Below, piece after piece: positions 4,021 through 54,734 of a stretch of DNA of 64,000 bases; position 1 is the stretch's first letter, and every line of letters starts with the position of its first letter. This DNA comes from Chryseobacterium sp. FP211-J200. GTDB taxonomy: Bacteria > Bacteroidota > Bacteroidia > Flavobacteriales > Weeksellaceae. The position numbers and the translations under genes are program-made. Location: positions 124,001-188,000 of the forward strand of contig NZ_LSHB01000056.1 of the NCBI RefSeq assembly GCF_001643375.1, written 5' to 3'. The notes below the pieces were generated by a model. It was not told the DNA's origin and did no database searches. It saw nothing but the letters and a program-made list of their open reading frames with translations.

Positions 4021-4695
4021 ATGCGAATAGACATCATAAGCGTACTTCCGGAACTCATGGAAAGCCCGTTCCAAACCTCAATACTGAAAAGAGCGATGGA
4101 AAAAGGATTGGCCGAAGTACATTTCCACAACGTCAGAGATTGGAGTACCAACAAACACCGCAAAGTGGATGACGAACCTTACGGCGGCGGCGCAGGAATG
4201 ATCATGACAGTCGAACCTTTGGACAACTGCATCTCCGACCTAAAATCGCAAAGAGATTACGACGAGATCATCTACCTCACACCAGAAGGTGAAACTTTGA
4301 ACCAAAGAATTGCCAACACGCTTTCTATCAAAAAAAATCTAATTTTCCTTTGCGGACATTACAAAGGCGTTGACCAGCGAGTTCGTGACCTTCACATTAC
4401 GAATGAAATTTCCATCGGTGATTATGTTTTGACAGGTGGAGAATTGGCAGCTTGCGTTTTGGCAGATTCCGTGATCCGACTTTTGCCAGGCGTTTTGAAT
4501 GATGAGCAAAGTGCATTGACAGATAGTTTTCAGGACAATCTTCTTTCACCACCAATCTACACAAGACCAGAAACTTACAAAGGTTTATCTGTCCCGAAAA
4601 TCTTATTGAGCGGTAACACTTCAGCCATCGAAGATTGGTTGCACGATGAAGCAGTGAGAGTGACAAAGGAAAGACGACCTGACCTTTTGGAATAA
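4021..4695 (+). CDS. trmD: tRNA (guanine-N1)-methyltransferase
   Basis: Starting at the ATG at 4021 the protein has 224 residues and begins [13 protein letters not shown], as expected for TrmD. An upstream extension would translate the repeat tract and is rejected. TrmD methylates G37 next to the anticodon, using S-adenosylmethionine and a trefoil-knot SPOUT fold. Visible family motifs are [22 protein letters not shown] and [12 protein letters not shown], the last forming the knot. In many bacteria trmD lies with rpsP, rimM and rplS; here rpsP and rimM are about 7 kb downstream and rplS is not in the window. Confidence 0.96.
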
Positions 4696-7864: not shown

Positions 7865-8455
7865 ATGAACATCTACAAGAATTTCAGCGAAGAAGAGTTG
7901 CTGATTGCCTACAACGAATTACTGGACAACTCCGGCAAAATCAATCGTGATATGCAGGAAATTCTAACTGAAAAAAGTTATAATGAAGAATTCTTTGCGA
8001 AGGCTAATCACAAAAAAGTTCTTGTTAAAGAAAAAGGAAGAATTGCTTTTGAAGTTAATAAGATGGTAGAAAAGGGGAATTTTTTTGAAGAGATAGAACC
8101 TACAATTTCATCCGATGTTTTAAATGATGATGAATTGTTTAACTTCATTTTAGCAAAATATATTATTTTTAAAAGCAATCACGAAAACGACAAAGTTGAT
8201 AAGAAAACTTTGTACAAAAGCTTTTTGGGCTTATTTGTGGGAACTTTTGCAGGAATTTCGTTTCTCTACTTGATTGTAACTTTCCTTCAAGCATTTAGTT
8301 TCTTTTTCTTGATTCCAACTTATGTAGTTTGTTATTTGGTTATAAAAAAAATCACAGGCAAAACGCGAGATAATTTGGCCGTTTTTATTTCCACTTTTCT
8401 TGCCACGACTTTCTCTGCAATTATTAGTTTTCTATTTACTGAAGGTCTTTTTTAA
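7865..8455 (+). CDS. Unknown membrane protein, two or three C-terminal helices
   Basis: A 196-residue protein whose ATG directly follows the nitroreductase stop, so the two are probably translationally coupled. Residues 1-115 are charged and helical (FSEEELLIAYNELL at the start). Two clear hydrophobic segments follow, roughly 120-155 and 170-195, the first rich in Phe (FLQAFSFFFLIP). I recognise no family. The gene lies exactly between the two copies of a 44-base duplication, which suggests it arrived by insertion or by unequal exchange between related nitroreductase genes. Confidence 0.65.
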   Translation: MNIYKNFSEEELLIAYNELLDNSGKINRDMQEILTEKSYNEEFFAKANHKKVLVKEKGRIAFEVNKMVEKGNFFEEIEPTISSDVLNDDELFNFILAKYIIFKSNHENDKVDKKTLYKSFLGLFVGTFAGISFLYLIVTFLQAFSFFFLIPTYVVCYLVIKKITGKTRDNLAVFISTFLATTFSAIISFLFTEGLF

Positions 8456-8515
8456 TTTTAAACTTCATCAATGCAAAAAGTTTAAATATTTTGGTCTCGT
8501 CGAGATTTACATTTG

Positions 8516-8563
8516 GAAAACCAACAATGTTTGGGATTATTTTATATGGGAAGTTTGGAGTAG
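8516..8563 (+). pseudogene. Remnant of a nitroreductase gene 3' end (direct repeat copy 2)
   Basis: In one frame these bases read ENQQCLGLFYMGSLE followed by TAG, the same ending as the nitroreductase at 7352-7864. The base difference at 8539 is silent. No start or upstream coding sequence remains, so this is a fragment. Confidence 0.8.
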
Positions 8564-8574
8564 GCTTAAATTTA

Positions 8575-8606
8575 TTTGTAGGAGACGCTCGTTATCTTTA
8601 GTTTTG
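8575..8606 (+). promoter_or_regulatory. Promoter of the T9SS cargo gene
   Basis: TTTG at 8575-8578 and TAGTTTTG at 8599-8606 are 20 bases apart, a good Bacteroidota promoter, with the GTG start 26 bases further on. Confidence 0.6.
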
Positions 8607-8631
8607 CGCAAAAACTACAAATTACCTATCC

Positions 8632-10941
8632 GTGAAAAAGACCTCTATCCTATTTTTCTTATTATTCGTTTGTTTTCTATTTTCTCAAAACAGAGAAGCA
8701 AATGACTGTGTCAATTACATTCAGATTTGTGGCAACCAAACCATTACACTCAATCCAAATGGATATGGAGTACAAGAGCTAAATCCCTCGAATGTTTGTC
8801 AAAGTAAAGAAAACAATTCTTTATGGTTAAAATTCACAGCTAAAACTACGGGAACGTTAGGATTTGACCTTATTCCGACAAGTAGTGCTATAGATGTGGA
8901 TTACGATTTCTGGATCTTCGGACCAAACGTCTCTTGTGGTAATATTGGTTTCTCTGTCAGATGCTCTACAACTAATCCGGAAGCAGCCTTTCTTGTCAAT
9001 AACCATACTGGGATGAGAGATTCTGAGCCTGCAGGAGATTTTTCTGAAGGACCGGGAGAATTGGGAGACGGCTATATCAAATCTATGGATGTGGTTGCAG
9101 GAGAATCTTATTTTTTAGTCATAGACAGACCGCAGGGCAATGGATCATTCTCACTTAACTGGACAGGAACTGCGATGCTGGAAGATCCATTTGGGACAGC
9201 GCCCAATGTTTTTGGGACAGTAGCCCCAATTGATGTATGTAATAGCAGTCTTTTATATGATTGTTCCACCTATAGCCCTTATATTCTAAATAGCAATCCA
9301 GAATTCGACATTACTTATTATGCGACATACGAAGATGCAACGTATGATGAGAACAGGATCACAACTCCTACTACACTTAGTAATCATGATTATTATTACA
9401 GAATTCAGAGCACGGTCACAGAATGTTTCCGGGTAGAGACAATCAAGGTCACTTGGAAACCTTTGACGTTGAATACGCCAGAACTGAAAGCTTGCAAAAC
9501 CAGCAATGATGAAGGTATTTTTAATCTTACTTCGGCAAATCTTACTAGTGAAAGTATTGCAGATATCAAATATTACCTGACATTCCAAGATGCACAAGAT
9601 CATATTCCAGGAACAGAAATACCAACACCTGGTCTTTATTCTTCAGTAGAAAAATCTGTCTTTGCATTGGTAAAAACAGTTTCCGGATGTGAAAACATTG
9701 CAGAGATTGTACTAAGTTTCTTCCCATTACCAAATGTTGACGCCAGTCTTTACGATGCAAGCCTTTGTGACAATGACCTCGATGGTTCTGTTAGTTTGAA
9801 ATTCTCAGACATTACACCAACCATAATCATCAATCCTACTGATTTTGACGTTTATTATTATTTGTCCACGAGTCCAGGAACTGCATTGGCAAATGATTTT
9901 ACATTCACTGCTGATAGAAATGTAATCGTAGAAGTGAGAAGTAAAAATGAATGCCCATCCGTCTTTGGGACCATCAATTTTAAAATTGCACCGCAAATTA
10001 AATTAAACCCTGTACAACCAATACAGATTTGCGACTCAGACCGTTCCGGAAATGAATTGGTGGACCTGAACGATTACACGGCCCTATTTACAACACAAGC
10101 CACCGCTACAGCATACGAGACACTAGCTGATGCAAAAAAAGATATCAATCGTATTTCTTTTTCACAAGATCTGAAAGTTAATAAAAGTTTTTTCTTTCGC
10201 TTTCAAAATAGTGTGGACTGTCCGAGTGTAGGAGAATTAAAATTAATATTCCAGAGTCCAAAAATTTCCAGTCTTTTACAAGATGTTATCATCTGCAAAG
10301 AAAACAGCATCGCGCTTGACGCAGGGCCTGGCTTTGATTCTTATGTATGGAGTTCCGGATCCACAAAATCTTCTTCTGGTGCTTTAAAAGTTGGTGATCA
10401 TTGGGTAGACCTGACATTTGACCGTTGTACCACCAGACAAACTGTAAAAGTAATTGCGGAGGAAGAGGTCATCATTAAAATCCTGGAAATTGACAATGAT
10501 AGATTGACAGTAACCGTAACTGGCGGAACAGCACCCTACGAATATTCTTTGGATGGTTTTACATGGCAATCGTCCAATATATTCAATAATATCCCCAAAG
10601 GTATTCAGCAGATCTATGTAAGAAGTTCCAAAAAATGTATCCCTTCTATACGTGAGTTTTCCAATATTAATCTTGTGAATGTGATCACGCCAAACGGGGA
10701 CGGCAAAAACGATGTTTTGGACTATTCTGCTCTGAGACTGAAAAACAATGTCACTTTCAAGATCTTTGACCGTTTTGGTAGATTTGTATTCATAGGAAAA
10801 GACGGCAATTACATCTGGGATGGGAAAGATGGAAAAAAACTTCTTTCTACAGGCACATTCTGGTACACCTTGGAATGGACAGAGCCCGACACCGAAGTTA
10901 TTCACAGATATAATTCTTGGATTTTGTTGAAAAACAGATAG
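8632..10941 (+). CDS. Secreted T9SS type B cargo with gliding-motility C-terminal domain
   Basis: A 769-residue protein starting at GTG, the only start codon placing the signal peptide (KKTSILFFLLFVCFLFSQ) at the N terminus. After an N-terminal region resembling jelly-roll or pre-peptidase beta domains there are repeated beta-sandwich-like modules with Cys pairs (such as ICDSDRSGNE and LCDNDLDGSV). The last 85 residues hold the hallmark of the gliding-motility-associated (CHU_C, type B) domain: NVITPNGDGKND, FKIFDRFGRFVF, DGKLLSTGTFWYTLEW-like sequence. This domain directs export by T9SS. The protein is probably a surface adhesin; no enzymatic motif is visible. Confidence 0.88.
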   Translation: MKKTSILFFLLFVCFLFSQNREANDCVNYIQICGNQTITLNPNGYGVQELNPSNVCQSKENNSLWLKFTAKTTGTLGFDLIPTSSAIDVDYDFWIFGPNVSCGNIGFSVRCSTTNPEAAFLVNNHTGMRDSEPAGDFSEGPGELGDGYIKSMDVVAGESYFLVIDRPQGNGSFSLNWTGTAMLEDPFGTAPNVFGTVAPIDVCNSSLLYDCSTYSPYILNSNPEFDITYYATYEDATYDENRITTPTTLSNHDYYYRIQSTVTECFRVETIKVTWKPLTLNTPELKACKTSNDEGIFNLTSANLTSESIADIKYYLTFQDAQDHIPGTEIPTPGLYSSVEKSVFALVKTVSGCENIAEIVLSFFPLPNVDASLYDASLCDNDLDGSVSLKFSDITPTIIINPTDFDVYYYLSTSPGTALANDFTFTADRNVIVEVRSKNECPSVFGTINFKIAPQIKLNPVQPIQICDSDRSGNELVDLNDYTALFTTQATATAYETLADAKKDINRISFSQDLKVNKSFFFRFQNSVDCPSVGELKLIFQSPKISSLLQDVIICKENSIALDAGPGFDSYVWSSGSTKSSSGALKVGDHWVDLTFDRCTTRQTVKVIAEEEVIIKILEIDNDRLTVTVTGGTAPYEYSLDGFTWQSSNIFNNIPKGIQQIYVRSSKKCIPSIREFSNINLVNVITPNGDGKNDVLDYSALRLKNNVTFKIFDRFGRFVFIGKDGNYIWDGKDGKKLLSTGTFWYTLEWTEPDTEVIHRYNSWILLKNR

Positions 10942-10978
10942 ATAATACTCAAAACACTTCCTAATTACCACAAAACCC

Positions 10979-11062
10979 CTAGCCCTGATTGAAGCGACAT
11001 CCTTTTTTGCGTGGGAAAAGCTCTGGCAAAAAGATATAGCGGAAAGCAGGTTCCCGGCTCCT
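10979..11062 (+). repeat. Structured intergenic element, copy 1 (possibly Flavo-1-like RNA)
   Basis: Begins AGCCCTGATTGAAGCGACAT and ends GGAAAGCAGG...GGCTC. AGCC at 10981-10984 pairs with GGCT at 11056-11059, and CTTTTTTGC at 11002-11010 pairs with GCAAAAAG at 11026-11033 as the apical stem. Two related copies lie at 23857-23942 (minus) and 25906-26009. Their basal stem has different bases but still pairs. I think it matches the flavobacterial Flavo-1 RNA motif, from memory only. Confidence 0.7.
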
Positions 11063-11070
11063 AAAAATCT

Positions 11071-11151
11071 AATGTAACAATATATCAATTTAACGATGTA
11101 GCAATATAATTTTCAAATTGGTAAATTATTAGATTTTCAAATTGTTACATT
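11071..11151. repeat. Inverted repeat upstream of rpsP
   Basis: AATGTAACAAT at 11071-11081 is exactly inverted at 11141-11151. The stretch between is AT-rich with further echoes (CAATATAATTTTCAAATTG). The right arm overlaps the rpsP -33 region. Confidence 0.6.
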
Positions 11152-11171
11152 AAAATATTTTTCTATCTTTG
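11142..11171 (+). promoter_or_regulatory. Promoter of rpsP
   Basis: TTG at 11142-11144 and TATCTTTG at 11164-11171, spacer 19 bases. It leaves a leader of roughly 40 bases. Confidence 0.7.
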
Positions 11172-11218
11172 CACACTTAATATTTAACCGGGACGTGTTC
11201 CCAAAATTTTAAAATTAT

Positions 11219-11791
11219 ATGTCAGTAAAAATCAGATTACAAAGACACGGATCTAAAGGGAAACCTTTTTTCCACATCGTGGTTGCAGATTCTAGAGCTA
11301 GAAGAGATGGTAGATTCATCGAAAAACTAGGGATCTATAACCCAATTACCAACCCTGCTACAATTGAATTGAACGTAGATTCTGCTGTACAATGGTTGAA
11401 CAACGGTGCACAACCAACTGACACTGCAAGAGCTATCCTTTCTTACAAAGGTGCTTTGTACAAAAAACACCTTCAAGGTGGTGTTGCTAAAGGTGCTTTC
11501 GACGAAGCTGAAGCTGAAAAGAGATTCGGTGCTTGGTTGGAAAGTAAAGAAGCAAAAGTACTAGGTAAAGTTGAAGGTTTATCTACAGCAAAATCTGACG
11601 CTAAAAAAGCGGCTTTGGAAGCTGAAGCTAAAGTAAACCAAGCAAGAATTGATGCTGCTGCGAAAGCTGAAGCTGATGCAAAAGCTGCTGAAGAGGCTGC
11701 AAACGCACCTGCTGAAGAAGTTGCAACTGAAGAAACTGCTACTGAAGAACCAACTGCTGAAGCAGAAGGAACTGAAGAAACTCAGGCTTAA
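11219..11791 (+). CDS. rpsP: 30S ribosomal protein S16 with long acidic tail
   Basis: Residues 1-80 are a typical S16 ([21 protein letters not shown] near the start, [13 protein letters not shown]). S16 binds 16S rRNA and is needed for 30S assembly. The protein runs to 190 residues, more than twice the usual core. From about residue 115 it is built of Ala, Glu, Lys and Thr and is probably helical, then disordered. Extended S16 proteins are known in Bacteroidota. rimM follows, but a strong terminator and an inverted-repeat element separate the two genes. Confidence 0.96.
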
Positions 11792-11814
11792 TTCTTTACA
11801 AAAAGATACAATCT

Positions 11815-11845
11815 CAAAGACACGATAATCTCGTGTCTTTGTTGT
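11815..11845 (+). terminator. Terminator after rpsP
   Basis: CAAAGACACGA at 11815-11825 pairs perfectly with TCGTGTCTTTG at 11831-11841 across a five-base loop. The T tract after it is short and interrupted. Confidence 0.75.
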
Positions 11846-11864
11846 TTAATAAAAAACCAATTTG

Positions 11865-11951
11865 TTTCCCCTACCCTAAAGGGAGCAAATTAATTTTGGA
11901 CTTCGTCGAACCACTTCGCCACGTTTCTTCCACCCTTTAGGGCTGGGGAAA
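11865..11951. repeat. Inverted-repeat element between rpsP and rimM
   Basis: The left arm TTTCCCCTACCCTAAAGGG (11865-11883) is inverted at 11933-11951 with one mismatch. Each arm also holds its own small palindrome CCCTAAAGGG or CCCTTTAGGG. The inner part carries CTTCGTCGAACCACTTCG. Its size and symmetry suggest a small non-autonomous mobile element or a structured RNA. No coding capacity is seen. Confidence 0.75.
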
Positions 11952-11975
11952 AGAAGAAAATTAATTTTTGAAATA

Positions 11976-12518
11976 ATGAGAAAAGAAGACTGCTATTTTT
12001 TAGGAACCATCACCAGAACACACGGACTGCAGGGCAATGTGATCCTGAAACTGGACACAGACCAACCTGAAATGTACGATAAACTGACATCGATTTTTTT
12101 GGAAATCAATGGTTTGCTGGTTCCGTTTTTTGTTGAAAAACAGCAGTGGCAGAGAGGCGACACGAAAATCCTTTCTTTCAAAAATTCTTCCGAAGCTTTG
12201 GTCAACCAAACGATTGGCAAAGGTGTTTATCTTCCGCTTTCTACCCTACCTCCATTGACTGGGAAAAAATTCTATTATCACGAAGTTGTGGGTTTCGAAA
12301 TCCGTGAAGAGGATGGAAAATCTTGTGGAACTATTGTTTCTATCAATGATATGACGGCTCAGAATTATTTCATTCTAGACCTTGCCGGAAAACAAATCAT
12401 CATTCCGCTTATCAGAGATTGGATTTTGGAAGTAAATCGTGAGGAGAAATTCATCAAAATGTTTTTACCGGAAGGTTTGATGGATGTTTTCCTGATTCCT
12501 TCGAAAAAGGATGAATAA
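11976..12518 (+). CDS. rimM: Ribosome maturation factor RimM
   Basis: A 180-residue 16S rRNA processing factor that binds S19 and helps mature the 30S head. The N-terminal RimM barrel is shown by YFLGTITRTHGLQGNVILK, and the PRC-barrel domain by YYHEVVGFEI and NYFILDLAGKQIIIPLI. Length is normal. It follows rpsP by 184 bases, the usual neighbour, though trmD is not adjacent here. The next gene converges on it, with only three bases between the two stop codons. Confidence 0.94.
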   Translation: MRKEDCYFLGTITRTHGLQGNVILKLDTDQPEMYDKLTSIFLEINGLLVPFFVEKQQWQRGDTKILSFKNSSEALVNQTIGKGVYLPLSTLPPLTGKKFYYHEVVGFEIREEDGKSCGTIVSINDMTAQNYFILDLAGKQIIIPLIRDWILEVNREEKFIKMFLPEGLMDVFLIPSKKDE

Positions 12519-43358: not shown

Positions 43359-44750
43359 TTAATATCCTAACAATTTAAGAACATCTTCCGCCCTTTGTTC
43401 TTCGCGGAAAAGCTCGTATGTGAAGTTTCCATCTTCGTCCTTATCAATCAAAATATGTTTTGGCTGAGGCATCAGACAGTGGTGAACACCGCCATAACCG
43501 CCAATAGTTTCCTGATAAGCGCCCGTATGAAAAAATCCGATGTACAAAGCTTTTGTCTCATTGAAAACCGGAAGATAAATCGCATTTGTATGTTGCTCCG
43601 AATTGTAGTAATCATCTGAATCACAAGTCAATCCACCAAGAAAAACCCTTTCGTAAGAATCCTCCCAACGGTTAAGCGGCAACATTATGAAGTGACGGGA
43701 AATTGCCCAGGTATCAGGTAAAGTCGTCATAAAAGAAGAATCAATCATATTCCATTTTTCTCTGTCGTTTTGACGTTTCTGAGAAATAATTTTATATAAA
43801 TGTCCACCACTTTCTCCAACAGTAAAGCTTCCGAATTCAGTGTAGATATTTGGTTCTTCTACACCTTCTTCTTCGCAGAATTTCTTGATTTGAGAGACAA
43901 TCTCATTGACCATATACTGATAGTCATAATCGAAATTAAGCGAAGTTTTAATTGGAAAACCACCACCAATATTAAGTGAATCAACTTCCGGTGCAATCTT
44001 TTTCAATCTTGCATAAACACGAAGACATTTGTACAATTCGTTCCAATAATAAGCCGTGTCTTTGATTCCCGTATTGATGAAAAAGTGAAGCATTTTCAGC
44101 CTAGCATTCGGATGTTCAGCAATTTTTTGACTGTAATAAGGAATAATATCCTTGTATCCAATTCCTAATCTTGAGGTATAAAATTCGAATTTTGGCTCTT
44201 CCTCAGAAGCAATTCTGATTCCGATGTCAAAAGTTCTGTCGATACTTTCCGTCAATTTATCCAACTCTCTATAGTTATCAAGAATCGGCGTAATATTTTC
44301 GAAACCTTTATTAATTAGCTCAGAAATCTTTGCCAAATAATCGTCAGTTTTGAAACCGTTACAGATTACTTCGATACTTTTATCAACTTTACCTTTGTCA
44401 TAAAGCGACTTCACAATATCCATATCGTAAGCCGAAGATGTTTCCAGGCTAATGTCATTTTTCAATGCTTCTTCTACAACAAATGCAAAATGGCTGGACT
44501 TTGTGCAATAGCAATATTTGTAATTTTTCTGGTAATCGTTCTTTTCAAAAGCTTCTTTGAACCAGAATTTTGCCCTTTCTATATTCTGAGATATTTTTGG
44601 TAAATAATTGAACTTCAAAGGAGTCCCGAATTTTTCCACAACCTCCATCAGATTGATATCGTGGAATTTCAGATTATTTTCTTCTACACTGAATTCTTCA
44701 GTCGGAAAATAAAGCGTTTGGTCAATTAGTTCAGAATATTTTATTTTCAT
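43359..44750 (-). CDS. speA: Biosynthetic arginine decarboxylase
   Basis: A 463-residue PLP enzyme that turns arginine into agmatine, the first step to polyamines. The PLP Lys is in YCYCTKSSHF, near residue 85. SLNIGGGFPIK binds the cofactor phosphate, and GGLTCDSDD lies near the C-terminal active-site Cys-Asp. It is shorter than the roughly 630-residue enterobacterial SpeA, as is usual for Bacteroidota, which lack the inserted domains. It stands alone. Confidence 0.9.
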   Translation of the reverse strand: MKIKYSELIDQTLYFPTEEFSVEENNLKFHDINLMEVVEKFGTPLKFNYLPKISQNIERAKFWFKEAFEKNDYQKNYKYCYCTKSSHFAFVVEEALKNDISLETSSAYDMDIVKSLYDKGKVDKSIEVICNGFKTDDYLAKISELINKGFENITPILDNYRELDKLTESIDRTFDIGIRIASEEEPKFEFYTSRLGIGYKDIIPYYSQKIAEHPNARLKMLHFFINTGIKDTAYYWNELYKCLRVYARLKKIAPEVDSLNIGGGFPIKTSLNFDYDYQYMVNEIVSQIKKFCEEEGVEEPNIYTEFGSFTVGESGGHLYKIISQKRQNDREKWNMIDSSFMTTLPDTWAISRHFIMLPLNRWEDSYERVFLGGLTCDSDDYYNSEQHTNAIYLPVFNETKALYIGFFHTGAYQETIGGYGGVHHCLMPQPKHILIDKDEDGNFTYELFREEQRAEDVLKLLGY

Positions 44751-45087: not shown

Positions 45088-45495
45088 ATGGCAAACAATT
45101 CACGAGCGATCCTAAAATTCAATGGTGGATCCGAACAAAAAATTCTTAAACTGAATTACGGCGTATCAAGAAACACAGATGTCTCAGGTCGAGTGGCATC
45201 CGATCCTTCTAATGCATTAATCAAAATTACTGTGGAAGCTACAGAAGATTCTGGTATTTTGGAAAGTTTACTGAATGGTAAATACAAACCAACCAGTGGT
45301 GAGGTAACATTTAACAAATCTCACGAAGAAGGAACATTGACTACATTGAAATGGGAAAATGGCTATGTGATACAGCACGAAGTAGATTATGATGCTCTGA
45401 ATGAGGATAATATGTTTATCAGTTTTATCGTGAGTGCAGAGAAAATCGAGTACGGTAATTCTGCTTACGACGGAATCTGGCCGGGAGCAAAATAG
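45088..45495 (+). CDS. tssD: Type VI secretion tube protein TssD (Hcp), Bacteroidota type
   Basis: A 135-residue protein. The pattern RAILKFNGG, LNYGVSRNTDVSGRVASDP, ESLLNGKYKPTSGEVTF and FISFIVSAEKIEYG fits TssD, the ring protein whose hexamers stack into the inner tube of the Bacteroidota (subtype iii) T6SS. Length is normal. It has its own promoter and is followed after 196 bases by vgrG. No sheath (tssB/tssC) or baseplate genes are present, so it must use machinery encoded elsewhere. Confidence 0.88.
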   Translation: MANNSRAILKFNGGSEQKILKLNYGVSRNTDVSGRVASDPSNALIKITVEATEDSGILESLLNGKYKPTSGEVTFNKSHEEGTLTTLKWENGYVIQHEVDYDALNEDNMFISFIVSAEKIEYGNSAYDGIWPGAK

Positions 45496-45691: not shown

Positions 45692-47692
45692 ATGTTTCGA
45701 GATTCAAAAAACCTCAATACCGCAAGCCAATCGTGGACAACAGCTGACCAGGAAGATGGCTCAATGCAAAATGATAAGCTTTGGAAAAAGCAACCAACGT
45801 CAAAGATCTACAATTCCAATGCAATAGACGTGAATCAAATTTTTGGAATCAACCGAGTTGTAGGACTCAAAATTATTGTCGAGGGAACAGTCATCAATCA
45901 TTACAATCATTTTTCTCTGAATCAAAGTGCTTGCAAACACCATTCTTTTGAGCTCAAACTGCCACACGATGCTTTAGAAAAATCGGAAAATCATGAACTG
46001 AATGAAGCTCAAAATTTTCTTGGGAAGAGACTCACAGTCGTTTTCAGTTATAAAGGTGTGCCTGATGGACCCGAAAGAACATTTGTTGGAGTCATCCTGA
46101 GTGTGGAATACGAACAGGAAGAAGGAAATTTAGGAATCATTGTACTTTCCGGATACAGTCCTACGATTCTTTTGGATGCCGCACCACACACGCAAAGCTT
46201 TGGAGGTTCATCTTCCGTAAGCCTGAACACGATTGCCGATGCCGTTATAAAAGAAGCGCTCAACAACAATTATGACTTCCGTATCGATTGCGGTTATGTG
46301 AAAAACATCAGCTACTCATCTCAATACAATGAAACGCATTACAATTATCTTGCTAGAATGGCGGAGGCATACGGCGAACAGTTCTTTTATGATGGTGAAG
46401 TGTTGCATTTCGGAACATTACCGCCACCAGAAGATCCGCTTCGTTTGATCTATAAAAGCAACATCTCAGATGTAAAATTAAAAATGAAAGCAACGCATGT
46501 CAATCCTACATTTTATGGCTACAACAGCAGTAAAAACGAAAAATTGACCACAGGCAAATCTACTGTAAAACATGTTTCGGATATTGCAAACCGAGCGCAA
46601 CAGATTGCAGAAAAAACCTTTACCACACCATCACTCCGCATAGCACCCATAAGATCATCAACTTCTATGGATATCGCTGCTTCACAAAAAGGAGCAGCAG
46701 GCAGCAAAGTTGCAGAAGTTTTTGTAACGTCAGGAAAAACATCAATCCCTTTTCTTTATCCCGGCTGTACAGCAGAAATTAATATGAGAAAGAAAGACAG
46801 CAGTCAAACATCTTACTTTACGAAGTTGATCATTACCGAAACCCAACACGAGGTAGATGGTAAGGGAAATTACCAGGGAACTTTTGAAGCCATCGCTGCA
46901 GACAGCGGATTTCTGCCTCGTCCAGAATTTGAATATCCAAATGCAGAAACGCAAATGGCGACCGTAATTTCCAATACAGACCCTCAAAATCAGGGCAGAG
47001 TGCAAGTGCGTTTTGACTGGCAATTGCATGAGACCACAGATTTTATACGCGTTATGACGCCGGACGCTGGGAGCAGTGAAAAAGTGAGCAAAAACAGAGG
47101 ATTTATGGCAATCCCCGAGATTGGCGATCAGGTAATGGTCGATTTTATCCACAATCATCCGGATCGTCCTTTTGTGATGGGCGGATTGTTCCACGGGAAA
47201 GTTGCAGGAGGCGGCGGAAGCGGAAATAATATCAAAAGTATCAGTAGTAAGAGTGGAAATATTATCCAGTTTAATGACATCAACGGTATTGAAATAAAAG
47301 ACCGGAACGGAAATCACGTGACCTTGAGCGGAACAGGAGATGTAACTACTTCGGTAAGCAATAATGCAACGGAAAATGTTGGCGTCATGCATTCCATTAA
47401 TGTGGGGAGTAAGGAAGGCGGCGGCTCCAATGCCGTTCTAAAAATGGACAATGCTGGAAATGTAAGCATTACTTGTGACAAAGAAATAAAGTTTGAAACA
47501 GGAACAAGTTCAATGACAATGAAATCAGACGGAACGATTGAAATTTCTGGCAAAAAAATATCTATAATAGGCGAAGATGTTTTGCTTGGAGGAACTAAAT
47601 TAGCAACTGTAGGTTCCAGTGGAGAAGGAAGTGTCAAAATAACGGGAGGAACTGATGTAACGATTAAAGCAACAGAAGTAGATATTAATTAA
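45692..47692 (+). CDS. tssI: Type VI secretion spike protein VgrG (TssI)
   Basis: A 666-residue spike protein from the ATG at 45692 (a GTG lies one codon earlier). The gp27-like part spans roughly residues 40-420 with YNETHYNYLARMAEAYGEQFFYDG. The gp5-like OB fold begins at NTDPQNQGRVQVRFDW and includes NHPDRPFVMGGLFHG. The C-terminal part (ISSKSGNIIQFND onward) is a Gly- and Val-rich beta-prism ending VTIKATEVDIN, a blunt tip for a PAAR protein. A one-base gap leads to the LysM gene, so the cargo genes are co-transcribed. Confidence 0.93.
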   Translation: MFRDSKNLNTASQSWTTADQEDGSMQNDKLWKKQPTSKIYNSNAIDVNQIFGINRVVGLKIIVEGTVINHYNHFSLNQSACKHHSFELKLPHDALEKSENHELNEAQNFLGKRLTVVFSYKGVPDGPERTFVGVILSVEYEQEEGNLGIIVLSGYSPTILLDAAPHTQSFGGSSSVSLNTIADAVIKEALNNNYDFRIDCGYVKNISYSSQYNETHYNYLARMAEAYGEQFFYDGEVLHFGTLPPPEDPLRLIYKSNISDVKLKMKATHVNPTFYGYNSSKNEKLTTGKSTVKHVSDIANRAQQIAEKTFTTPSLRIAPIRSSTSMDIAASQKGAAGSKVAEVFVTSGKTSIPFLYPGCTAEINMRKKDSSQTSYFTKLIITETQHEVDGKGNYQGTFEAIAADSGFLPRPEFEYPNAETQMATVISNTDPQNQGRVQVRFDWQLHETTDFIRVMTPDAGSSEKVSKNRGFMAIPEIGDQVMVDFIHNHPDRPFVMGGLFHGKVAGGGGSGNNIKSISSKSGNIIQFNDINGIEIKDRNGNHVTLSGTGDVTTSVSNNATENVGVMHSINVGSKEGGGSNAVLKMDNAGNVSITCDKEIKFETGTSSMTMKSDGTIEISGKKISIIGEDVLLGGTKLATVGSSGEGSVKITGGTDVTIKATEVDIN

Positions 47693-47693
47693 T

Positions 47694-48746
47694 ATGGAGT
47701 TTACAAAATACAATATTCAAAAAGAAGACACCATAGAATCCATCGCCACTAAGCATAAAATAAGCGTAAATGAGCTATTGGATTTTCATAATGCAAATTC
47801 AACTTTGACTCAGCAGTTTTTTGGAAGCACAATTCCGATTCATATTGATGAATTGATTGTTCCTCTATTTTTAGAAAAAAAAGAAAAAGGCATTTCGGAT
47901 TCTGTCAACTTTGAGCAAAAAGCGCGATATAGATGTGAGCAAACGGTTGTAATGAAGTTGAATGGCATAATTCATAGTCATGCAGATACAAAAAGAGAAT
48001 TTGTAGTCGAAAAAAGGAAAACAAAAAATAATCAAATTGTAAAAATAAAATTAACAGAAAATATCATTGATGCCTATCAAAAACAACTGGAACTTGCTCT
48101 AAAACTTGTTTGCGAAATAGATATGATAAAGTCTGATGTCTTAGTTAATTTAAATCAAAATGGAAAAATAAGCAACATTTTAAATCATAATGAAATCATC
48201 CAAAAGTGGCATCACAAGAAGAATCAGTATGAAAATGATTTCACTTTTATGAGAGACTCCAATTCTAAACAAGATTTCAAAAATTTTTTAAACATTACAG
48301 ACTTACAAATTGTAAGTGAGGAAAATCTTATCAATTATTTATATTCAAAACTATTTTTTGACGTATTTTTTGACAAATATCTAGTAAATGACAATTTTTT
48401 AGATGACTACTCTCGGACTTTTTACTCTCAACTATTTGATGGTTATGCTGTAAAACTAAATTTCACACAAAATATATTATCAGAAAGTCCGTCTGATGTT
48501 GCAATACGAAAAGTAAGCTCATTCTCAAAATCTGATTTGGATAATGAATTTTTGGAAAAACAATATGATAATAAATTTAAACCAATTGTAAAGTACAGAT
48601 TCTCGGAATACAATTTTAGTGTAAGAGAAAGATGCATAATAAATACTGATGAAAATTGGATTGAAAGTTCAGACATTACAATCATTGAGGAAGTAAAAAA
48701 CAATGTGCAGGTATTAATAGATTATAAATTACGAAAAATAGAATAA
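47694..48746 (+). CDS. LysM-domain protein, candidate T6SS adaptor
   Basis: A 350-residue protein. Residues 5-37 form a LysM-like motif (YNIQKEDTIESIATKHKISV) which may bind a glycan or the VgrG tip. The rest, beginning at Cys81, is of no family known to me; it is rich in Lys, Asn and Phe and ends EEVKNNVQVLIDYKLRKIE. No signal peptide. A paralogue lacking the LysM part follows at 50482-51327, and each copy lies directly upstream of a PAAR-like gene. That order suggests an adaptor or chaperone that loads the PAAR-like effector on VgrG (inference). The gene is more AT-rich than vgrG. Confidence 0.65.
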   Translation: MEFTKYNIQKEDTIESIATKHKISVNELLDFHNANSTLTQQFFGSTIPIHIDELIVPLFLEKKEKGISDSVNFEQKARYRCEQTVVMKLNGIIHSHADTKREFVVEKRKTKNNQIVKIKLTENIIDAYQKQLELALKLVCEIDMIKSDVLVNLNQNGKISNILNHNEIIQKWHHKKNQYENDFTFMRDSNSKQDFKNFLNITDLQIVSEENLINYLYSKLFFDVFFDKYLVNDNFLDDYSRTFYSQLFDGYAVKLNFTQNILSESPSDVAIRKVSSFSKSDLDNEFLEKQYDNKFKPIVKYRFSEYNFSVRERCIINTDENWIESSDITIIEEVKNNVQVLIDYKLRKIE

Positions 48747-48748
48747 CG

Positions 48749-49879
48749 ATGGCAGAATCGTATATACCTGAAGGAACTAGTGTCATTTGTACATTAATGC
48801 AGAAAGGTCCAAACAAAATCGGGCTCATTGAGGGTAGAAAATCTCACGTTTTATACAAAGGTGGCAATGCCCCATTACTAAACGAATTAGATAAAAAAAT
48901 AGACGAATCGTTCAATTGCAAAAACGCATCAAAATTTTGGGGAGGACTTCAAGCTTTGTGTGTAGGAATAGCGATAGGTGCTTTGATTGTAGCCGCAGTT
49001 GCAGCAACAGTTCTTACGGGCGGAGCGGCGGCTGTTTTTCTTATTGCCGCTGGCGCCACTGCAGGCACAAGCCTTGTTGCAGGCGTTGTGGGCTTATATA
49101 AAATGGCTCATGACTGCGATGCAACAAAAGATTCACAGTGGCAACTATTGCATGACACAGTGAAAATCGAGGGGCAAAAAGCAGTTCTGAACAGATCTTT
49201 TATTAGTTGCAATAAAGGAGGAAAAGTAACTATAATTATTGATCCTGTAATTGCACAAAATGCAGCAGAGATATTAATAAATAATAACGAAAACGAGGTT
49301 GCTGCACACATGACAAGCCAATTTGTGATGGGGGTTATTACGGGTGCTACTTCTGCATCTCCTGCTGCATTAGCTGTCGCTTCTCCTTTAGCAGTTTATT
49401 CTTATGCAGATGCAGAGAACAAGGAACAAGAACAGCGATCTAAAAACCAAGGAAGAGATCCTTTTTGGACACAAGCAGGTGACGCTGCTAAAGACGAAGG
49501 CAGAGATGCAGCCTTGGGTCTACCGGGGGATTTTTATGAAGAAGTGACCGAAGTGACCGCAAACAACCAAGCTGTTCAAAGAGAGGTGATAGAGTTTGGG
49601 CAGCAAGCAGCAACTAGAGAAGCCGCAGGAGATGCTGCAGGTGCTTTAAATGCCAGAATTGCGCAGCAAATAGCAAGTAACTCTTTTAAAACGCCATGGA
49701 AAGGTTTGCTAAAAGGGTTAGGAATAGGCCTTGCCGCAGGGGTGGTAAACTTTGGAATAGATCAATGGTCGAACTCTTTTGAGGATAGAATGCATAAAGG
49801 TTCAAGAGATGAAATAAGAGATTCCGATGAATTAGATGAAAATAATAATAATATTGGAATCATAGCAACAGATGTATGA
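48749..49879 (+). CDS. PAAR-like protein A with internal hydrophobic block, putative T6SS effector
   Basis: A 376-residue protein. Residues 1-57 (ESYIPEGTSVICTLMQ) and 130-170 (WQLLHDTVKIEGQKAVLNRS, FISCNKGGKVTIIIDP) resemble the two ends of Bacteroidota PAAR-like (DUF4280-type) proteins. Between them, residues 66-118 are almost purely hydrophobic and could form two membrane helices. Further hydrophobic stretches lie at 189-220 and 318-337. The C terminus is acidic and ends NNIGIIATDV. It could cap VgrG and insert into a target membrane. No enzymatic motif is visible. A paralogue lies at 51327-52436. The next gene overlaps its stop by four bases. Confidence 0.68.
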   Translation: MAESYIPEGTSVICTLMQKGPNKIGLIEGRKSHVLYKGGNAPLLNELDKKIDESFNCKNASKFWGGLQALCVGIAIGALIVAAVAATVLTGGAAAVFLIAAGATAGTSLVAGVVGLYKMAHDCDATKDSQWQLLHDTVKIEGQKAVLNRSFISCNKGGKVTIIIDPVIAQNAAEILINNNENEVAAHMTSQFVMGVITGATSASPAALAVASPLAVYSYADAENKEQEQRSKNQGRDPFWTQAGDAAKDEGRDAALGLPGDFYEEVTEVTANNQAVQREVIEFGQQAATREAAGDAAGALNARIAQQIASNSFKTPWKGLLKGLGIGLAAGVVNFGIDQWSNSFEDRMHKGSRDEIRDSDELDENNNNIGIIATDV

Positions 49880-50481
49880 AAAATTTAGGGATACCATATG
49901 CCATAGGATATATTTTGGCAGGATTAGTTCTTCTACCACTATTAATAATTGGTATCAACAAATTATTTTTTCAAGGAAATGATGCTGATAAAAATATTGA
50001 TCAGTATTTAAATAACATGAAAAATATAAGAATTCATTTGAATGAAAATGATAAAATAATAAGAGGTTATGAAAGGTACACCGCTTTTCTATCAAAAGGT
50101 AGAGATGGAATTATTCATATTGATGTAAATACTTTTTTCTCTACAGAATATAAAAAATATTTCTCATTTCGGATGGCAAATATCGGAGACAACTTTTATT
50201 ATGCATTTGACAATCATATTAAAAAGTTAGGATTTATTGTAACCGTCAACAAAGACGACCTACAAAATCCAAAAATGGGAACAAAGGAACACCCAATTCC
50301 CGTATTTCGTGTTATTGGCGACGAAAAGCCAATCCGTCTTTGGCACACTGGAAAAAATGGAGAAACGGTTTACGAAAACTACGACATTACCCAACAGCAA
50401 TACGAAAACAGCGTGTATTGCCATTTGAAATATGTAATGTCTAAAGAAGAATTCGAAGAAAGGTTTGAAAAACAGAAGTAA
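49876..50481 (+). CDS. Membrane-anchored accessory protein A, candidate immunity protein
   Basis: A 201-residue protein with one N-terminal membrane helix (about residues 8-31, IGYILAGLVLLPLLIIGINK) and a soluble rest, probably periplasmic or cytoplasmic depending on topology. It shares with its paralogue at 52438-53007 the motif LQNPKMGTKEHPIPVF and the ending MSKEEFEERF. The ATGA overlap with the PAAR-like gene implies coupled translation. Position right behind a putative membrane-active effector makes immunity the simplest role, but this is inference. I know no family for it. Confidence 0.62.
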   Translation: MKNLGIPYAIGYILAGLVLLPLLIIGINKLFFQGNDADKNIDQYLNNMKNIRIHLNENDKIIRGYERYTAFLSKGRDGIIHIDVNTFFSTEYKKYFSFRMANIGDNFYYAFDNHIKKLGFIVTVNKDDLQNPKMGTKEHPIPVFRVIGDEKPIRLWHTGKNGETVYENYDITQQQYENSVYCHLKYVMSKEEFEERFEKQK

Positions 50482-51327
50482 AAATTCAGATGTTTCTTAT
50501 GCCAGTGTGAGCAAACAATTGTTACCAAACTAAACGGAATTCCTACAAATACTGCAAAAACAAAAAGAGAATTTCTTGTAAAAAAGCAAACAGAAGATGA
50601 AAATATTTTTTTTACAATTTCTATCACAGATCAGATTATTGAAACAAATCCTAATCAGTATCAAGAAGCGATAGAACTAGTTTCTGAACTTGATTGGGTT
50701 AAATGCGACGGAATTGTACTGAAAGTAAATTCCCTTACTGGAAACATCGAAAAAATAGTCAATCACGAAGAAATTATTAATAAATGGTGTGAACACAAAA
50801 AAAAGCTAGAAAACAAATACGCTTTCATAAGAAATCCCAAAGGGAGTGATGGTATTAAAAAATTCATTCAAACTGCAGAGCAACAGATTGTGAACGAAAA
50901 AACGCTACTTGAGGATTTGGAAACCAAAATGTTTTTCGATATTTTTTTTAACAAATATCTTGTTAATGCGAAAGATAAAATGGATGCTTTTACCCGAAAT
51001 TTTTATTCTCAATTGTTTATTGGAGAAAAAATTGAATTGAAAATAAATCAAAACTTACTTCGGGAAAGTGAAGATAAAATATTAATAAGAAAGGTAAGCT
51101 CAATAAATGATACACTAAGAAAATCTGCAAAATTTGCTGATATGTATGATGAGAGGTACAAACCAATTCTACAGTACAAATTTTCCGAGTATAATGCCAG
51201 TTTGAGGGAAAGAGTTGTTTATGACGAAAATTTGAATGTACCAGAGGAGGGCGAAGTAACTATCATTGAAGAGATAAAAAACAATATCCAGCTACTTGTG
51301 AGTTATAACTTTAGAAAAATCGAATAA
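50482..51327 (+). pseudogene. Second LysM-type adaptor gene, start and LysM part missing
   Basis: The frame is open from the base after the previous stop to the TAA at 51325-51327, 281 codons, but contains no ATG, GTG or TTG in its first 400 bases. Its translation matches the upstream LysM protein from about residue 79 on (CEQTIVTKLNG against CEQTVVMKLNG, KTKREFLVKK against DTKREFVVEK, and the ending EEIKNNIQLLVSYNFRKIE). The first 78 residues, including LysM, are lost. A GTG at 50890 could start a 145-residue C-terminal piece. The last base of its stop overlaps the next ATG (TAATG). Confidence 0.75.
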
Positions 51328-52436
51328 TGGCAAATTCTTATATCATACAGGGTACCAATGTAGTTTGTACCAATATGCAGGTTCCCGAACCTCTAAAAGT
51401 TGGTGTTTCCAGAACTAATACCAATATTGTACATACCAATAAAGCCCAATATTTTTTGAATATTAAGGATCGAAAAATTAGTGAATCCTTCAAATGCAAA
51501 ATGGCGGCAAAAAAATGGTGCGGTTTAGCATTATTGTGTGCTGGTTTAGCAATTGGCGGTGCTATTTTGCTTACCGTTGCAACGGGTGGTTTGGCAGCTC
51601 CAGCTTTGATAGCACTTGCTGCAACTGTAACTACCGCCGGTGTGGCCGTAGCAGCCACAGGTGCTGTAGTAGCAATTGGAATAGGCATTTACAAAGAAGT
51701 CCACGATTGCGATGTTACTTTATCAACACAATGGGAGAGATTTCACGATTCTGTAAAATTTCAAGGACAAAATGCGCTGTTGAACTCCTCCATTATGAAT
51801 TGTCCACAAGGAGGTGTAGTAACTTTAATTGTAGATCCTGTGATCGCACAACAAGCCGCTGAATTTATAAGCAATAACAACCGAAAAGAGATTCTGGCAC
51901 AAGGTCTTAGCAAATTGGGAGTGGGTATTATTGGGGGACTTACTGGTGGAGCAAACGGACTTGGTGTGAGCTTGGCAATAGGTTTTGATATTTTGTTTGA
52001 GGATGGAGAGAGCGAAAGATTTGATCTGGCTAAAGAAACAAAGGAATCTGGTATAGAAACCGGATCAGGCTTATTAATAGATGGTGGCCAGGAAATAAAT
52101 GACATCAGAAAGCTCACTGCCCACAATCAGGGGGTACAAAGAAACATTACGCAGTTTTCTACCGAAGCAGCGCAAGCAAGAGCTGCAGGCGACGCTTCCA
52201 GAGCCTGGAGCAGAGAATTGGCTGCAGAGATGGAAGCAAGTGCTTTTAAGGATTTTGATCCTTCAGGTCTTAAAAACATAGGAATTGGTCTTGGCGGTGC
52301 TGTTGCAGGTTTTGTACTGGAACAGGCTGTGAATCAGTATAAAGATAATTTGTATAGAGATTCAATAAAAATGCTTTCAAATTCTGAGATTGCAGATTCT
52401 AAAAACAATATAGGTGTAATAGCAACGGAAAGATAA
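51327..52436 (+). CDS. PAAR-like protein B with internal hydrophobic block, putative T6SS effector
   Basis: A 369-residue paralogue of the protein at 48749-49879, alignable end to end: SYIIQGTNVVCTNMQ at the start, a hydrophobic block at residues 66-122, then WERFHDSVKFQGQNALLNSS and NCPQGGVVTLIVDPVIAQ, and an ending NNIGVIATER. The middle region (KLTAHNQGVQRNITQF, RAAGDAS) is also conserved. The pair diverges gradually along its length and does not swap a C-terminal toxin domain. A role as spike tip and membrane-active effector is inferred from the PAAR-like ends and hydrophobicity. Confidence 0.68.
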   Translation: MANSYIIQGTNVVCTNMQVPEPLKVGVSRTNTNIVHTNKAQYFLNIKDRKISESFKCKMAAKKWCGLALLCAGLAIGGAILLTVATGGLAAPALIALAATVTTAGVAVAATGAVVAIGIGIYKEVHDCDVTLSTQWERFHDSVKFQGQNALLNSSIMNCPQGGVVTLIVDPVIAQQAAEFISNNNRKEILAQGLSKLGVGIIGGLTGGANGLGVSLAIGFDILFEDGESERFDLAKETKESGIETGSGLLIDGGQEINDIRKLTAHNQGVQRNITQFSTEAAQARAAGDASRAWSRELAAEMEASAFKDFDPSGLKNIGIGLGGAVAGFVLEQAVNQYKDNLYRDSIKMLSNSEIADSKNNIGVIATER

Positions 52437-52437
52437 A

Positions 52438-53007
52438 ATGAATATGAAAAATATGGGTTACGTTATCGGTTTGGTTATTGGGATTCCACTATTTATTTTG
52501 GTTGCTAATTTTTTCTTCTTTCGAGGGAATGCTCCAAGTGAAACAGAAGTATTGAATTATATAAAAAACTCAAATGTTGATACCATAATTCTTCCGCAAA
52601 ATGTACAAGAAAATTCCGAACAATATATTAAAGGTTTAAGTCGGCGTGGGAGACCATCGGGATTTCTAGATAAATATCCTTTTTTTGATAAAAAAAATAA
52701 TAAACATTTTGTTATGTTAATAATTAATTTTCTAGATAACACTTCTGTAATGAGGTCACTTGTACTTCGACGTAATGAAGAAGGCGATAAAATCTCCGTT
52801 CGCATCAATCAAGACCAACTCAATAACCCAAAATATGGCACCAAAGAAAATCCGGTTCCTGTTTTTCCAATAGATATTTTAAATGCAAAATGGGACTCTG
52901 ATATTAGCCAATTTCACGTTTCAGAAGAATTGAATAAAATATTTGTAGAGCAATATCTCAAACACTTTATGCCAAAAGAAGAATTTAAAGAAATGTTTAG
53001 AAAATAA
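52438..53007 (+). CDS. Membrane-anchored accessory protein B, candidate immunity protein
   Basis: A 189-residue paralogue of the protein at 49876-50481. It has one N-terminal membrane helix (YVIGLVIGIPLFILVANFFF), the shared motif LNNPKYGTKENPVPVF and the ending MPKEEFKEMFRK. The start at 52438 has alternatives at 52444 and 52453. It begins one base after the stop of PAAR-like protein B, repeating the effector-accessory order of the first cassette. Fragments of two more copies of its N terminus lie at 53035 and 54041. Confidence 0.62.
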   Translation: MNMKNMGYVIGLVIGIPLFILVANFFFFRGNAPSETEVLNYIKNSNVDTIILPQNVQENSEQYIKGLSRRGRPSGFLDKYPFFDKKNNKHFVMLIINFLDNTSVMRSLVLRRNEEGDKISVRINQDQLNNPKYGTKENPVPVFPIDILNAKWDSDISQFHVSEELNKIFVEQYLKHFMPKEEFKEMFRK

Positions 53008-53034
53008 ATCCTCAATTAAATTTCTATTAAAAAA

Positions 53035-53109
53035 ATGGGCTATGTTATTGGATTGGTAATTGGAATTCCTTTATTTATTTTACTGGCAATTAAAAAAAAC
53101 AACAAATAA
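53035..53109 (+). pseudogene. Fragment of a third accessory gene (membrane anchor only)
   Basis: Reads MGYVIGLVIGIPLFILLAI then KKNNK and a stop, 24 residues. The first 17 residues match the membrane anchor of the gene just upstream. Beyond the stop another frame stays open to about 53217, with no similarity I can see. Confidence 0.7.
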
Positions 53110-53215
53110 AAGTTCATCAATTTTCCGATTATAAAGTGGATATTAGGATTCATAGAACAATAGATTTTAAAACGAAATTAGTAGTAGATGGTAGAATTAC
53201 TAGTTCCATCAAAAG

Positions 53216-53607
53216 ATGAAAAATATGAAAAAGAGTAAATTTGAATTTTATGGTGTTGATTCTAAAACAGAATTGTCCATAGGACTCATCGCAGGCTTAT
53301 CACTCATAGTCGTGTGGTTTGGTCTGCTGCTGTTCTATTACGAATATTTCCAGTTAGATTCTGTGTTACGTATTTCCAAAAGAATTTTTTTCCTGTGTCT
53401 CCTCATTTATCTTTTTTTGCCAAAGAGCAAAATATTAAAATTAAAGTGGGCACAAGTTTTTTAACTCCATTTTCAACAAAAGAGGATTTGCGAATAATAG
53501 ACGGATTTGTAGAATTTATTTCTCCTTTTCTGAAAAATAATTTTGATAATAAAATCAAAAAAGCGATTCATTTTGAAAACCAAGGCATTTATTTAAAAAA
53601 TATTTGA
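53216..53607 (+). pseudogene. Frameshifted small membrane protein gene X1
   Basis: The first frame (from ATG at 53216) gives KKSKFEFYGVDSKTELSIGL and one membrane helix, then runs into an unlikely tail. Shifting frame in the T run near 53384-53392 continues into a sensible acidic C terminus (STKEDLRIIDGFVEFISPF, ending NQGIYLKNI). The next unit at 53607-53844 has similar ends. So one gene of about 130 codons is probably broken by a single shift. A sequencing error in the T run is the alternative. Confidence 0.6.
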
Positions 53608-53844
53608 TGAAAGAATATAAATTCAAAGGTTTAGACAATAGGCAAATATAAAATCAGGAATTGTAGTAGCAGTTATAATTACAGTGCCATTTGGCCTCAC
53701 TTCTTTAATGAGAAAATAAAAACCTGTTTTTCAGCTATTTTTTCATTCAGTGCTGAATTTCTATTATTAGTAAAACCTTTTTCAAATCAAAAAGAAACCT
53801 ATAATCAAGGATATAGAATCATTAATTTATCAAAAAACAATTAA
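53607..53844 (+). pseudogene. Degenerate paralogue X2 of the preceding small gene
   Basis: Begins MKEYKFKGLDNR, echoing MKKSKFEFYGVDSK of X1, then hits a stop. A shifted frame gives IKSGIVVAVIITVPFGL, like the X1 membrane helix. A third frame ends NQGYRIINLSKNN, like NQGIYLKNI of X1. The ATG overlaps the X1 stop (TGATG). It contains at least two shifts and is shorter than X1. Confidence 0.55.
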
Positions 53845-53846
53845 TT

Positions 53847-54026
53847 ATGGGAATTTATTTGCCGGATAAAGTATACACTGTTTGTATGAACCAACTCGGT
53901 ACAGAATACAAACAGCTCACAATTGACAATGAATTAAGACCTAAAGCAAATCAAACCGTAAAATTAGGTTCGGAAAGCCGTATATTTCTGTCAAAATTAG
54001 TCACTATGGGAGTAATTGCCATATAG
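53847..54026 (+). pseudogene. Remnant of a third PAAR-like gene (N terminus)
   Basis: A 59-residue frame starting MGIYLPDKVYTVCMNQLG, similar to the starts of the two PAAR-like proteins upstream (SYIPEGTSVICTLMQ and SYIIQGTNVVCTNMQ). It stops after FLSKLVTMGVIAI, where a hydrophobic block would be expected. The remainder of the gene is gone. A short intact protein is possible but less likely given its surroundings. Confidence 0.55.
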
Positions 54027-54040
54027 AAATAGGTAAAATA

Positions 54041-54076
54041 AAAAAATAAGGTTATACGATTGGATTGCTGATAGGG
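54041..54076 (+). pseudogene. Remnant of a fourth accessory membrane anchor
   Basis: Reads GYTIGLLIG without a start codon (ATAAGG where the related copies have ATGGG). The bases resemble 53031-53065. It follows the PAAR-like remnant, so the order PAAR-like then anchor is kept even in decay. Confidence 0.55.
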
Positions 54077-54104
54077 AGGAAAAATAAGCAGCCGGTTTTA
54101 TTGA

Positions 54105-54734
54105 TTACTTCCCAACAAAAATAAGCAAATCTCCTTCTTTGTATTTAACAGAAACTTCCTGATTCTCTGCAATATTCCGAGTTCCAATTCTTTCTCCCAA
54201 CATCAGATCTTCTTTATGTAAAGGCCATTTCAATCCTATAGTTTCAATATTTTTAGCAATTGGAAATGGCATTAATGAAATCATCTTGTCCTTCACATCA
54301 GAAATTGCGAATTCTTTTGGAATAAAATAATAGGACGAATAATTATCAAAAAATCTGAGTTTCAAGTTATCTTTAAAGAAAAAAGCGACGCTCAAGTTTC
54401 CTAAAAAATGGTCTTGTTCTCCTCCACTTGCGCCGTAAACATCAATATTTTCAAAGCCTTTTTCAAAAATTAATTCCAAAGCTTTGTGGAAATCAGTTTT
54501 ATTTTGGTCGGGCGTTTCGATAATTTCAAAACCGTGAACTTTGGATTGAAGAATTTCTTCGTCATTTGAATGAGAATCAAAATCGCCGGAAATAAAATCC
54601 AATTTTTCTAATGGAAAATTCAATTCTCTTAAATAATGAAAAGCACCGTCAGTACAAGCAATCAACTCATAATCTGACAGATTTGGAAATTCTTTTGGTG
54701 GTTCGCCGTTGATGAAAAGTAAGGCCTTTTTCAT
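54105..54734 (-). CDS. thiN: Thiamine pyrophosphokinase
   Basis: A 209-residue enzyme that makes thiamine diphosphate from thiamine and ATP. Family motifs are ACTDGAFHYL, ISGDFDSH, TPDQNKTDFHKAL and GASGGEQDHFLGN, which hold Mg-ATP. The C-terminal beta-sandwich binds thiamine (VKYKEGDLLIFVGK). Length is normal. Its end converges on the decayed T6SS region. It is 18 bases downstream of the adenosyltransferase gene and probably shares its transcript, both serving cofactor metabolism. Confidence 0.9.
   Translation of the reverse strand: MKKALLFINGEPPKEFPNLSDYELIACTDGAFHYLRELNFPLEKLDFISGDFDSHSNDEEILQSKVHGFEIIETPDQNKTDFHKALELIFEKGFENIDVYGASGGEQDHFLGNLSVAFFFKDNLKLRFFDNYSSYYFIPKEFAISDVKDKMISLMPFPIAKNIETIGLKWPLHKEDLMLGERIGTRNIAENQEVSVKYKEGDLLIFVGK

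Follow-up and report, generated by a model that had tools for sequence, protein, structure and literature searches.

The question raised by this locus is what the broken stretch between the last intact accessory gene of a T6SS island and thiN (53,008 to 54,104) once was, and how it came to lie there. The window, 64,000 nucleotides of the 4.1-Mb draft genome of Chryseobacterium sp. FP211-J200 (G000), carries between speA and thiN the genes for TssD and VgrG, two LysM/PAAR/Imm sets, and then the remnant stretch (Table 1), and was compared with 22 congeners. An older effector cassette of the T6SSiii hcp/vgrG island, cassette 3, survives here as a remnant, with its adaptor, putative immunity, and effector genes all broken in the window. 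A preliminary description had called the stretch the graveyard of a third effector cassette, which is borne out by an intact counterpart in congener G007 at 91 to 96% DNA identity.

Table 1. Features of the island and its neighbors, in window coordinates
Feature	Position	Strand	Evidence or remark
speA (arginine decarboxylase)	43,359-44,750	-	Left island neighbor; adjoins thiN without island in 21 of 22 congeners
TssD (Hcp), tube protein	45,088-45,495	+	Pfam TssD E 8e-31
VgrG, mosaic	45,692-47,692	+	97.5% identity to G007 up to about codon 437, 80% thereafter
LysM1, complete cassette 1 adaptor	47,694-48,746	+	Pfam LysM E 2e-4, 21.7 bits against cutoff of 20.9; two-part inheritance
PAAR1, DUF4280-like putative effector, cassette 1	48,749-49,879	+	DUF4280 E 2e-5, just under curated cutoff
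Imm1, membrane-anchored putative immunity protein	49,876-50,481	+	Lies 3' of PAAR1; in G135, five complete copies in tandem
Start of second Imm1 copy, truncated at about codon 8	50,482-50,506	+	G135 alignment runs to 50,502; letters match next Imm start there
LysM2, headless cassette 2 adaptor	50,507-51,326	+	Starts at RYRCEQ motif; alignment to complete G051 gene begins at same codon
PAAR2, DUF4280-like putative effector, cassette 2, intact	51,327-52,436	+	DUF4280 E 1e-7
Imm2, membrane-anchored putative immunity protein, intact	52,438-53,007	+	3' of PAAR2; homologues in 12 of 246 family genomes
Anchor fragment 1, start of second Imm2 copy	53,023-53,090	+	Imm2-start match 53,026-53,081
LysM3, C-terminal remnant of cassette 3 adaptor	53,100-53,201	+	0 of 500 shuffles as high against several LysM relatives
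Small gene, putative cassette 3 immunity gene	53,216-53,607	+	Broken by 172-bp deletion at 53,405-53,407; 91-92% identical to intact G007 gene
Spacer with vestige of second small gene	53,608-53,846	+	96.7% identical to G007, also broken there
PAAR3, first ~48 codons of cassette 3 effector	53,847-53,990	+	96% DNA identity to intact G007 gene (53,847-53,976)
Anchor fragment 2, effector C-terminal tail and immunity start	53,991-54,080	+	Junction similarity to cassette 2 and G230
thiN	54,105-54,734	-	Right island neighbor; present in 23 of 23 genus genomes

The TssC gene on contig C7 shows that G000 carries the core of a T6SSiii machine, and the genome has seven TssD genes of the Bacteroidota type. 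These seven (one at 45,088 to 45,495 and six in other places) have near-identical lengths and, where compared, 95 to 96% protein identity to the island TssD. The island TssD gene shares 99.8% DNA identity with its G007 counterpart, which suggests gene conversion or recent transfer. Searches with the island found no match in the plasmid collection, and the search of the genome itself for further remnant copies returned chance-level matches only.

G007 is the only other congener with the island. There, at the same speA-thiN site, the order is TssD-VgrG-LysM-small gene-spacer-PAAR3 (450 aa), with the intact counterpart of cassette 3 directly 3' of vgrG. The remnant aligns to this counterpart at 90% over 53,193 to 53,407 and at 95% over 53,405 to 53,976; the broken small gene is about 91% identical in DNA, and the spacer and PAAR3 start are 96 to 97% identical. 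The spacer (53,605 to 53,846) is more conserved (96.7%) than the adjoining small-gene pieces (91 to 92%), which could mean rapid diversification of the small gene or separate histories for the segments. Just 3' of PAAR3 in G007 there is also a direct repeat of about 57 bp in two copies (L037, 2,725 to 2,870).

The remnant opens, as had been proposed, with an anchor fragment, which matches the start of Imm2 at 78% over 23 aa by tblastn (E 2e-8) and at 82% over 57 bp by blastn (E 1e-10). The LysM3 remnant behind it (53,100 to 53,200) was missed in the preliminary description, as was the headless LysM2 at 50,507 to 51,326; the last codons of LysM3 meet the G007 match at 53,193, and the remnant is too short to place the cut that removed its head. 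What had been read as two broken copies of a small gene is one gene with a deletion, corresponding to positions 4659 to 4830 of L037 (172 bp) and with a 3-bp microhomology, ATT, at the break. The supposed second copy (53,608 to 53,840) is a vestige, with family likeness over about 10 residues only (MKEYKFKGLD; shuffle p 0.001, profile E 0.005). A full second small gene was rejected, the likeness being limited to these first residues. The vestige is broken in the same way in G007.

The PAAR-like N terminus recognized earlier stands by way of its 96% DNA identity to the G007 gene; the piece itself has no significant match to PAAR1 or PAAR2 of the window (best E 0.35). The complete 450-aa PAAR3 gene of G007 matches PAAR2 at E 1e-10, linking the piece to the PAAR family, and aligns to both PAAR1 and PAAR2 with common Cys and Gly positions. 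Against PF14107 (DUF4280; cutoff, 26.3 bits), PAAR2 scored 32.7 and PAAR1 25.7, and PAAR3 of G007 gave no match. At only about 25% identity to PAAR1 and PAAR2, the cassette 3 effector belongs to another effector subfamily, and its structure model (pLDDT 49.5) was too poor to use. The putative immunity gene of cassette 3 is likewise unrelated in sequence to Imm1 and Imm2, and lies upstream, not downstream, of its effector.

The second anchor fragment is weak when taken alone (E 0.09), and the tblastn search with intact cassette proteins of the window, advised earlier as a check, gave a significant match for the first anchor fragment but for neither this one nor the PAAR piece. Taken as a unit, 53,977 to 54,080 resembles the junction of an effector end and an immunity start: no shuffle in 1,000 scored as high for cassette 2, and likewise for G230. 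Three other junctions gave p values of 0.006 to 0.008, and several had no similarity. The G007 sequence 3' of PAAR3 had no significant match to anchor fragment 2 (p 0.40). The unit does not match the PAAR3 end in G007 and could therefore be what is left of a further, fourth module; anchor fragment 2 may also stem from a later exchange.

Repeated duplication and loss at the 3' end of the island had been offered as the cause. For the anchor pieces, which are truncated extra immunity starts, this appears to hold; for the cassette body, which is of another subfamily and very probably displaced, it does not. Local tandem duplication, with cassette 3 a decayed in-place copy of cassettes 1 and 2, would fit the common order of LysM, PAAR-like, and anchored genes in the intact cassettes, as well as the anchor fragments, which are copies of immunity starts of a kind common in tandem in relatives. 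Yet the PAAR3 piece, with no significant match to PAAR1 or PAAR2, is 96% identical to the G007 gene of the other subfamily, so cassette 3 is not a local duplicate, and even PAAR1 and PAAR2 are only 42% identical, with different C termini in their adaptors. Duplication is thereby already contradicted for the main body of cassette 3, and as an account of the whole it is most unlikely.

The other subfamily of cassette 3, the LysM3 remnant, and the corrected small gene therefore point to sequential displacement as the main cause. Very probably, the island is a stack of T6SS effector modules in which cassette 3 is the oldest well-recognized layer, displaced by newer modules. A module would comprise the effector-specific portion of a LysM adaptor, a spike-tip effector of DUF4280-like type, and an immunity protein of the membrane. 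Recombination in conserved stretches of the upstream genes, either in vgrG near codon 437 or in the LysM gene at the RYRCEQ motif, would let in new modules, which would take the place adjoining vgrG, while the resident module would shift toward thiN, lose the front of its adaptor gene, and decay. Cassette 3 would formerly have been first 3' of vgrG, as it still is in G007. Foreign DNA is the probable source of the modules, and the time order of events, read from only two island-bearing congeners, is likewise a probable one.

At both junctions in the window, an immunity gene is followed by the start of another immunity copy, and this in turn by an adaptor that has lost its head and belongs to the next older module. 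The 25-bp start of an Imm1 copy precedes headless LysM2, and the start of an Imm2 copy precedes LysM3; thus, the pattern is the same at both. In the LysM2 reading frame, ATG, GTG, and TTG codons are absent upstream of 50,890, and the start of LysM2 coincides with the motif at which co-inheritance with the effector begins. In each case the older module lies 3' of the newer one and is found intact behind vgrG in a relative, cassette 3 in G007 and cassette 2 in G051, which has a cassette of this type (PAAR2, 70% identical) with a complete LysM gene directly 3' of VgrG.

Comparable arrangements were seen elsewhere in G000. A single contig (L190, G000:C69:1-15877) holds four successive modules, three of them preceded by a VgrG C-terminal piece (155 to 185 aa), and their effector-like genes (two with HEXXH-type zinc-peptidase signatures, judged by eye) are each followed by a lipoprotein-like gene; the contig has the look of a more extensive array of displaced modules without heads. 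In L189 (G000:C21:60000-76000), at 7,700 to 12,400, two more headless VgrG pieces lie 3' of a TssD gene, each with downstream module genes, and begin near codons 395 and 444 of the window VgrG.

The age of the island bears on another account, in which all three cassettes were acquired together and the last one rotted in place. Differences from G007 at 4-fold sites amount to 36% in speA and 40% in thiN, compared to 6.7% in the first 430 VgrG codons, and the dead spacer differs at 3.3% of sites. The island pieces are far less diverged than the flanks; therefore, the shared parts of the island would be much younger than the species split, and the decay would have taken place within that shorter time. 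Judged by these divergences and by the empty site in the 21 other congeners, the island is apparently a recent arrival in both congeners, and horizontal transfer would explain its young shared parts. Recent arrival suits decay in place, as complex arrays can be transferred whole, but G007 has the left part and cassette 3 with neither cassette 1 nor cassette 2, and the VgrG front is of about the same young age as the spacer of cassette 3. These two observations suggest that cassettes 1 and 2 were inserted between the VgrG front and cassette 3, in this lineage or in that of a donor, and make decay without displacement highly improbable. The decay of cassette 3 itself probably occurred in the lineage of the window or of a donor. 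The step in VgrG identity at about codon 437 appears to mark the left edge of a later exchange.

The PAAR and Imm products are predicted toxins and antidotes, with toxicity, immunity, and loading all presumed, and Pfam and NCBIfam searches with the anchored genes yielded nothing convincing. In alignment A1, otherwise very different effectors keep a short motif at the extreme C terminus (N-x-I-x-V-I-A or similar; 49,840 to 49,876 and 52,400 to 52,433 in the window), which may be a recognition tail. The earlier comparison of the remnant to arrays of orphan immunity genes was apt. Relatives carry both orphan and tandem immunity genes, the extra copies numbering two to six in tandem. In G135, for example, one effector is followed by five complete immunity genes and a partial sixth, and G230 and G131 have three each. 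In G135 (L137, 4856 to 8079, minus strand), the six tandem copies are joined stop to start; copies 2 to 6 lack the ATG of the first, each starting right after the preceding stop codon. G219 retains a displaced effector end with its Imm2, and G193 has a broken Imm2.

In 11 of the 15 named loci, the small gene directly precedes an effector of PAAR3 type; in three it stands without one, as the 3'-terminal gene of an island that carries a different effector, and the fifteenth locus, in a distant member of the Prevotellaceae, has no detectable island genes. Full-length copies without the PAAR3 effector at island 3' ends occur in L181, L183, L187, G223, and G229. Putative orphan immunity genes are therefore represented among relatives, although the cassette 3 gene itself is broken in the window. 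Placement beside PAAR3 or as a 3' orphan speaks for the small gene as the putative immunity gene of PAAR3. Alternatively, it could encode an effector chaperone or other accessory, making the remnant a delivery unit rather than an effector-immunity pair. Its position upstream of the effector and adjoining the adaptor gene would suit such a role, and its structure model (pLDDT 84), with two membrane helices and a PH-like barrel, is no known immunity fold. A PDB search with this model returned no E value below 0.001 and TM scores near 0.3 (PH-like at most), and nothing convincing was found in Pfam or NCBIfam. However, small-gene copies outlast PAAR3 at island 3' ends, the usual behavior of immunity genes, and no other immunity candidate appeared in type-B cassettes among the families searched, so an accessory role is unlikely.

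The two-part inheritance of the adaptor was examined by comparing pairwise identities across 20 LysM-effector loci (Spearman; the permutation used dependent data from related loci and was not phylogenetic). Identity in LysM residues 1 to 77 did not follow effector identity (rho 0.08, permutation p 0.19), whereas that in residues 78 to 350 did (rho 0.80, p 0.001), and the two parts were uncorrelated with each other (rho −0.01). Pairs with effector identity below 60% gave the same outcome, 0.04 for the N-terminal and 0.78 for the C-terminal part. In sliding windows the correlation was 0.02 to 0.12 before RYRCEQ and mostly 0.5 to 0.76 beyond the motif, falling to 0.3 over residues 131 to 180; the step lies at the conserved motif where displaced LysM2 begins. 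For VgrG windows the correlation with the effector was weak (rho no higher than 0.25), and therefore travel of the VgrG C terminus with the effector is not supported.

The displacement principle is already known from Vibrio cholerae, where new effector-immunity modules enter behind vgrG and push older immunity genes downstream, with homology-facilitated illegitimate recombination as the proposed route (Kirchberger et al. 2017, PMC5361080). The window very probably records the same sequential displacement behind vgrG. It differs in belonging to a Bacteroidota T6SSiii, in its DUF4280-like effectors and LysM adaptor in place of Tap-1, in keeping effector and adaptor remnants as well, and in the broken immunity gene of its oldest layer. 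Headless displaced modules downstream of an active gene are also known as the orphan toxin ends of Rhs and CdiA, with the break inside the toxin gene; here, the break falls in the adaptor gene or vgrG and the effector genes are whole at first. PMC5361080 cites orphan Rhs ends, and also chimeric Tap-1 (DUF4123) adaptors in V. cholerae, in which the 3' end accompanies the cargo effector. The 3' end of the LysM adaptor likewise tracks its effector, but DUF4123 had no match at E ≤ 1 in LysM1 or the G007 LysM protein, making the adaptor an analogue rather than a member of that family.

As in the window, where a LysM domain is encoded between vgrG and the effector gene, the accessible part of PMC10673891 describes a LysM gene in that position, needed in Ketobacter for effector binding to VgrG. 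By analogy, the LysM protein of the window would bridge VgrG and effector. The LysM proteins in that part of the study are from Proteobacteria and mostly go with cell-wall-active toxins, and a large effector-specific C-terminal part is not described there. In the literature searched, which covered few subscription journals, neither chimeric LysM adaptors nor arrays of this type in Flavobacteriia were described, and no description of the LysM joint or of these effector and immunity families was found.

Tentatively, and at slightly less than an even chance, RYRCEQ could serve T6SS islands throughout the Weeksellaceae as an exchange joint, at which the LysM half stays with the resident spike while the adaptor C terminus, effector, and immunity gene travel together, leaving the island a layered stack with fast turnover. 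Turnover would be fast because the spacer is about 3% diverged from G007 compared to 36 to 40% at 4-fold sites of the flanks. The finding would carry the displacement model known from Vibrio over to another phylum, Bacteroidota, name an exchange joint in another adaptor family, LysM, and supply families of effectors, immunity proteins, and adaptors whose pairings can be tested. Layered remnants of this kind would let past weapon changes be read from a single genome.
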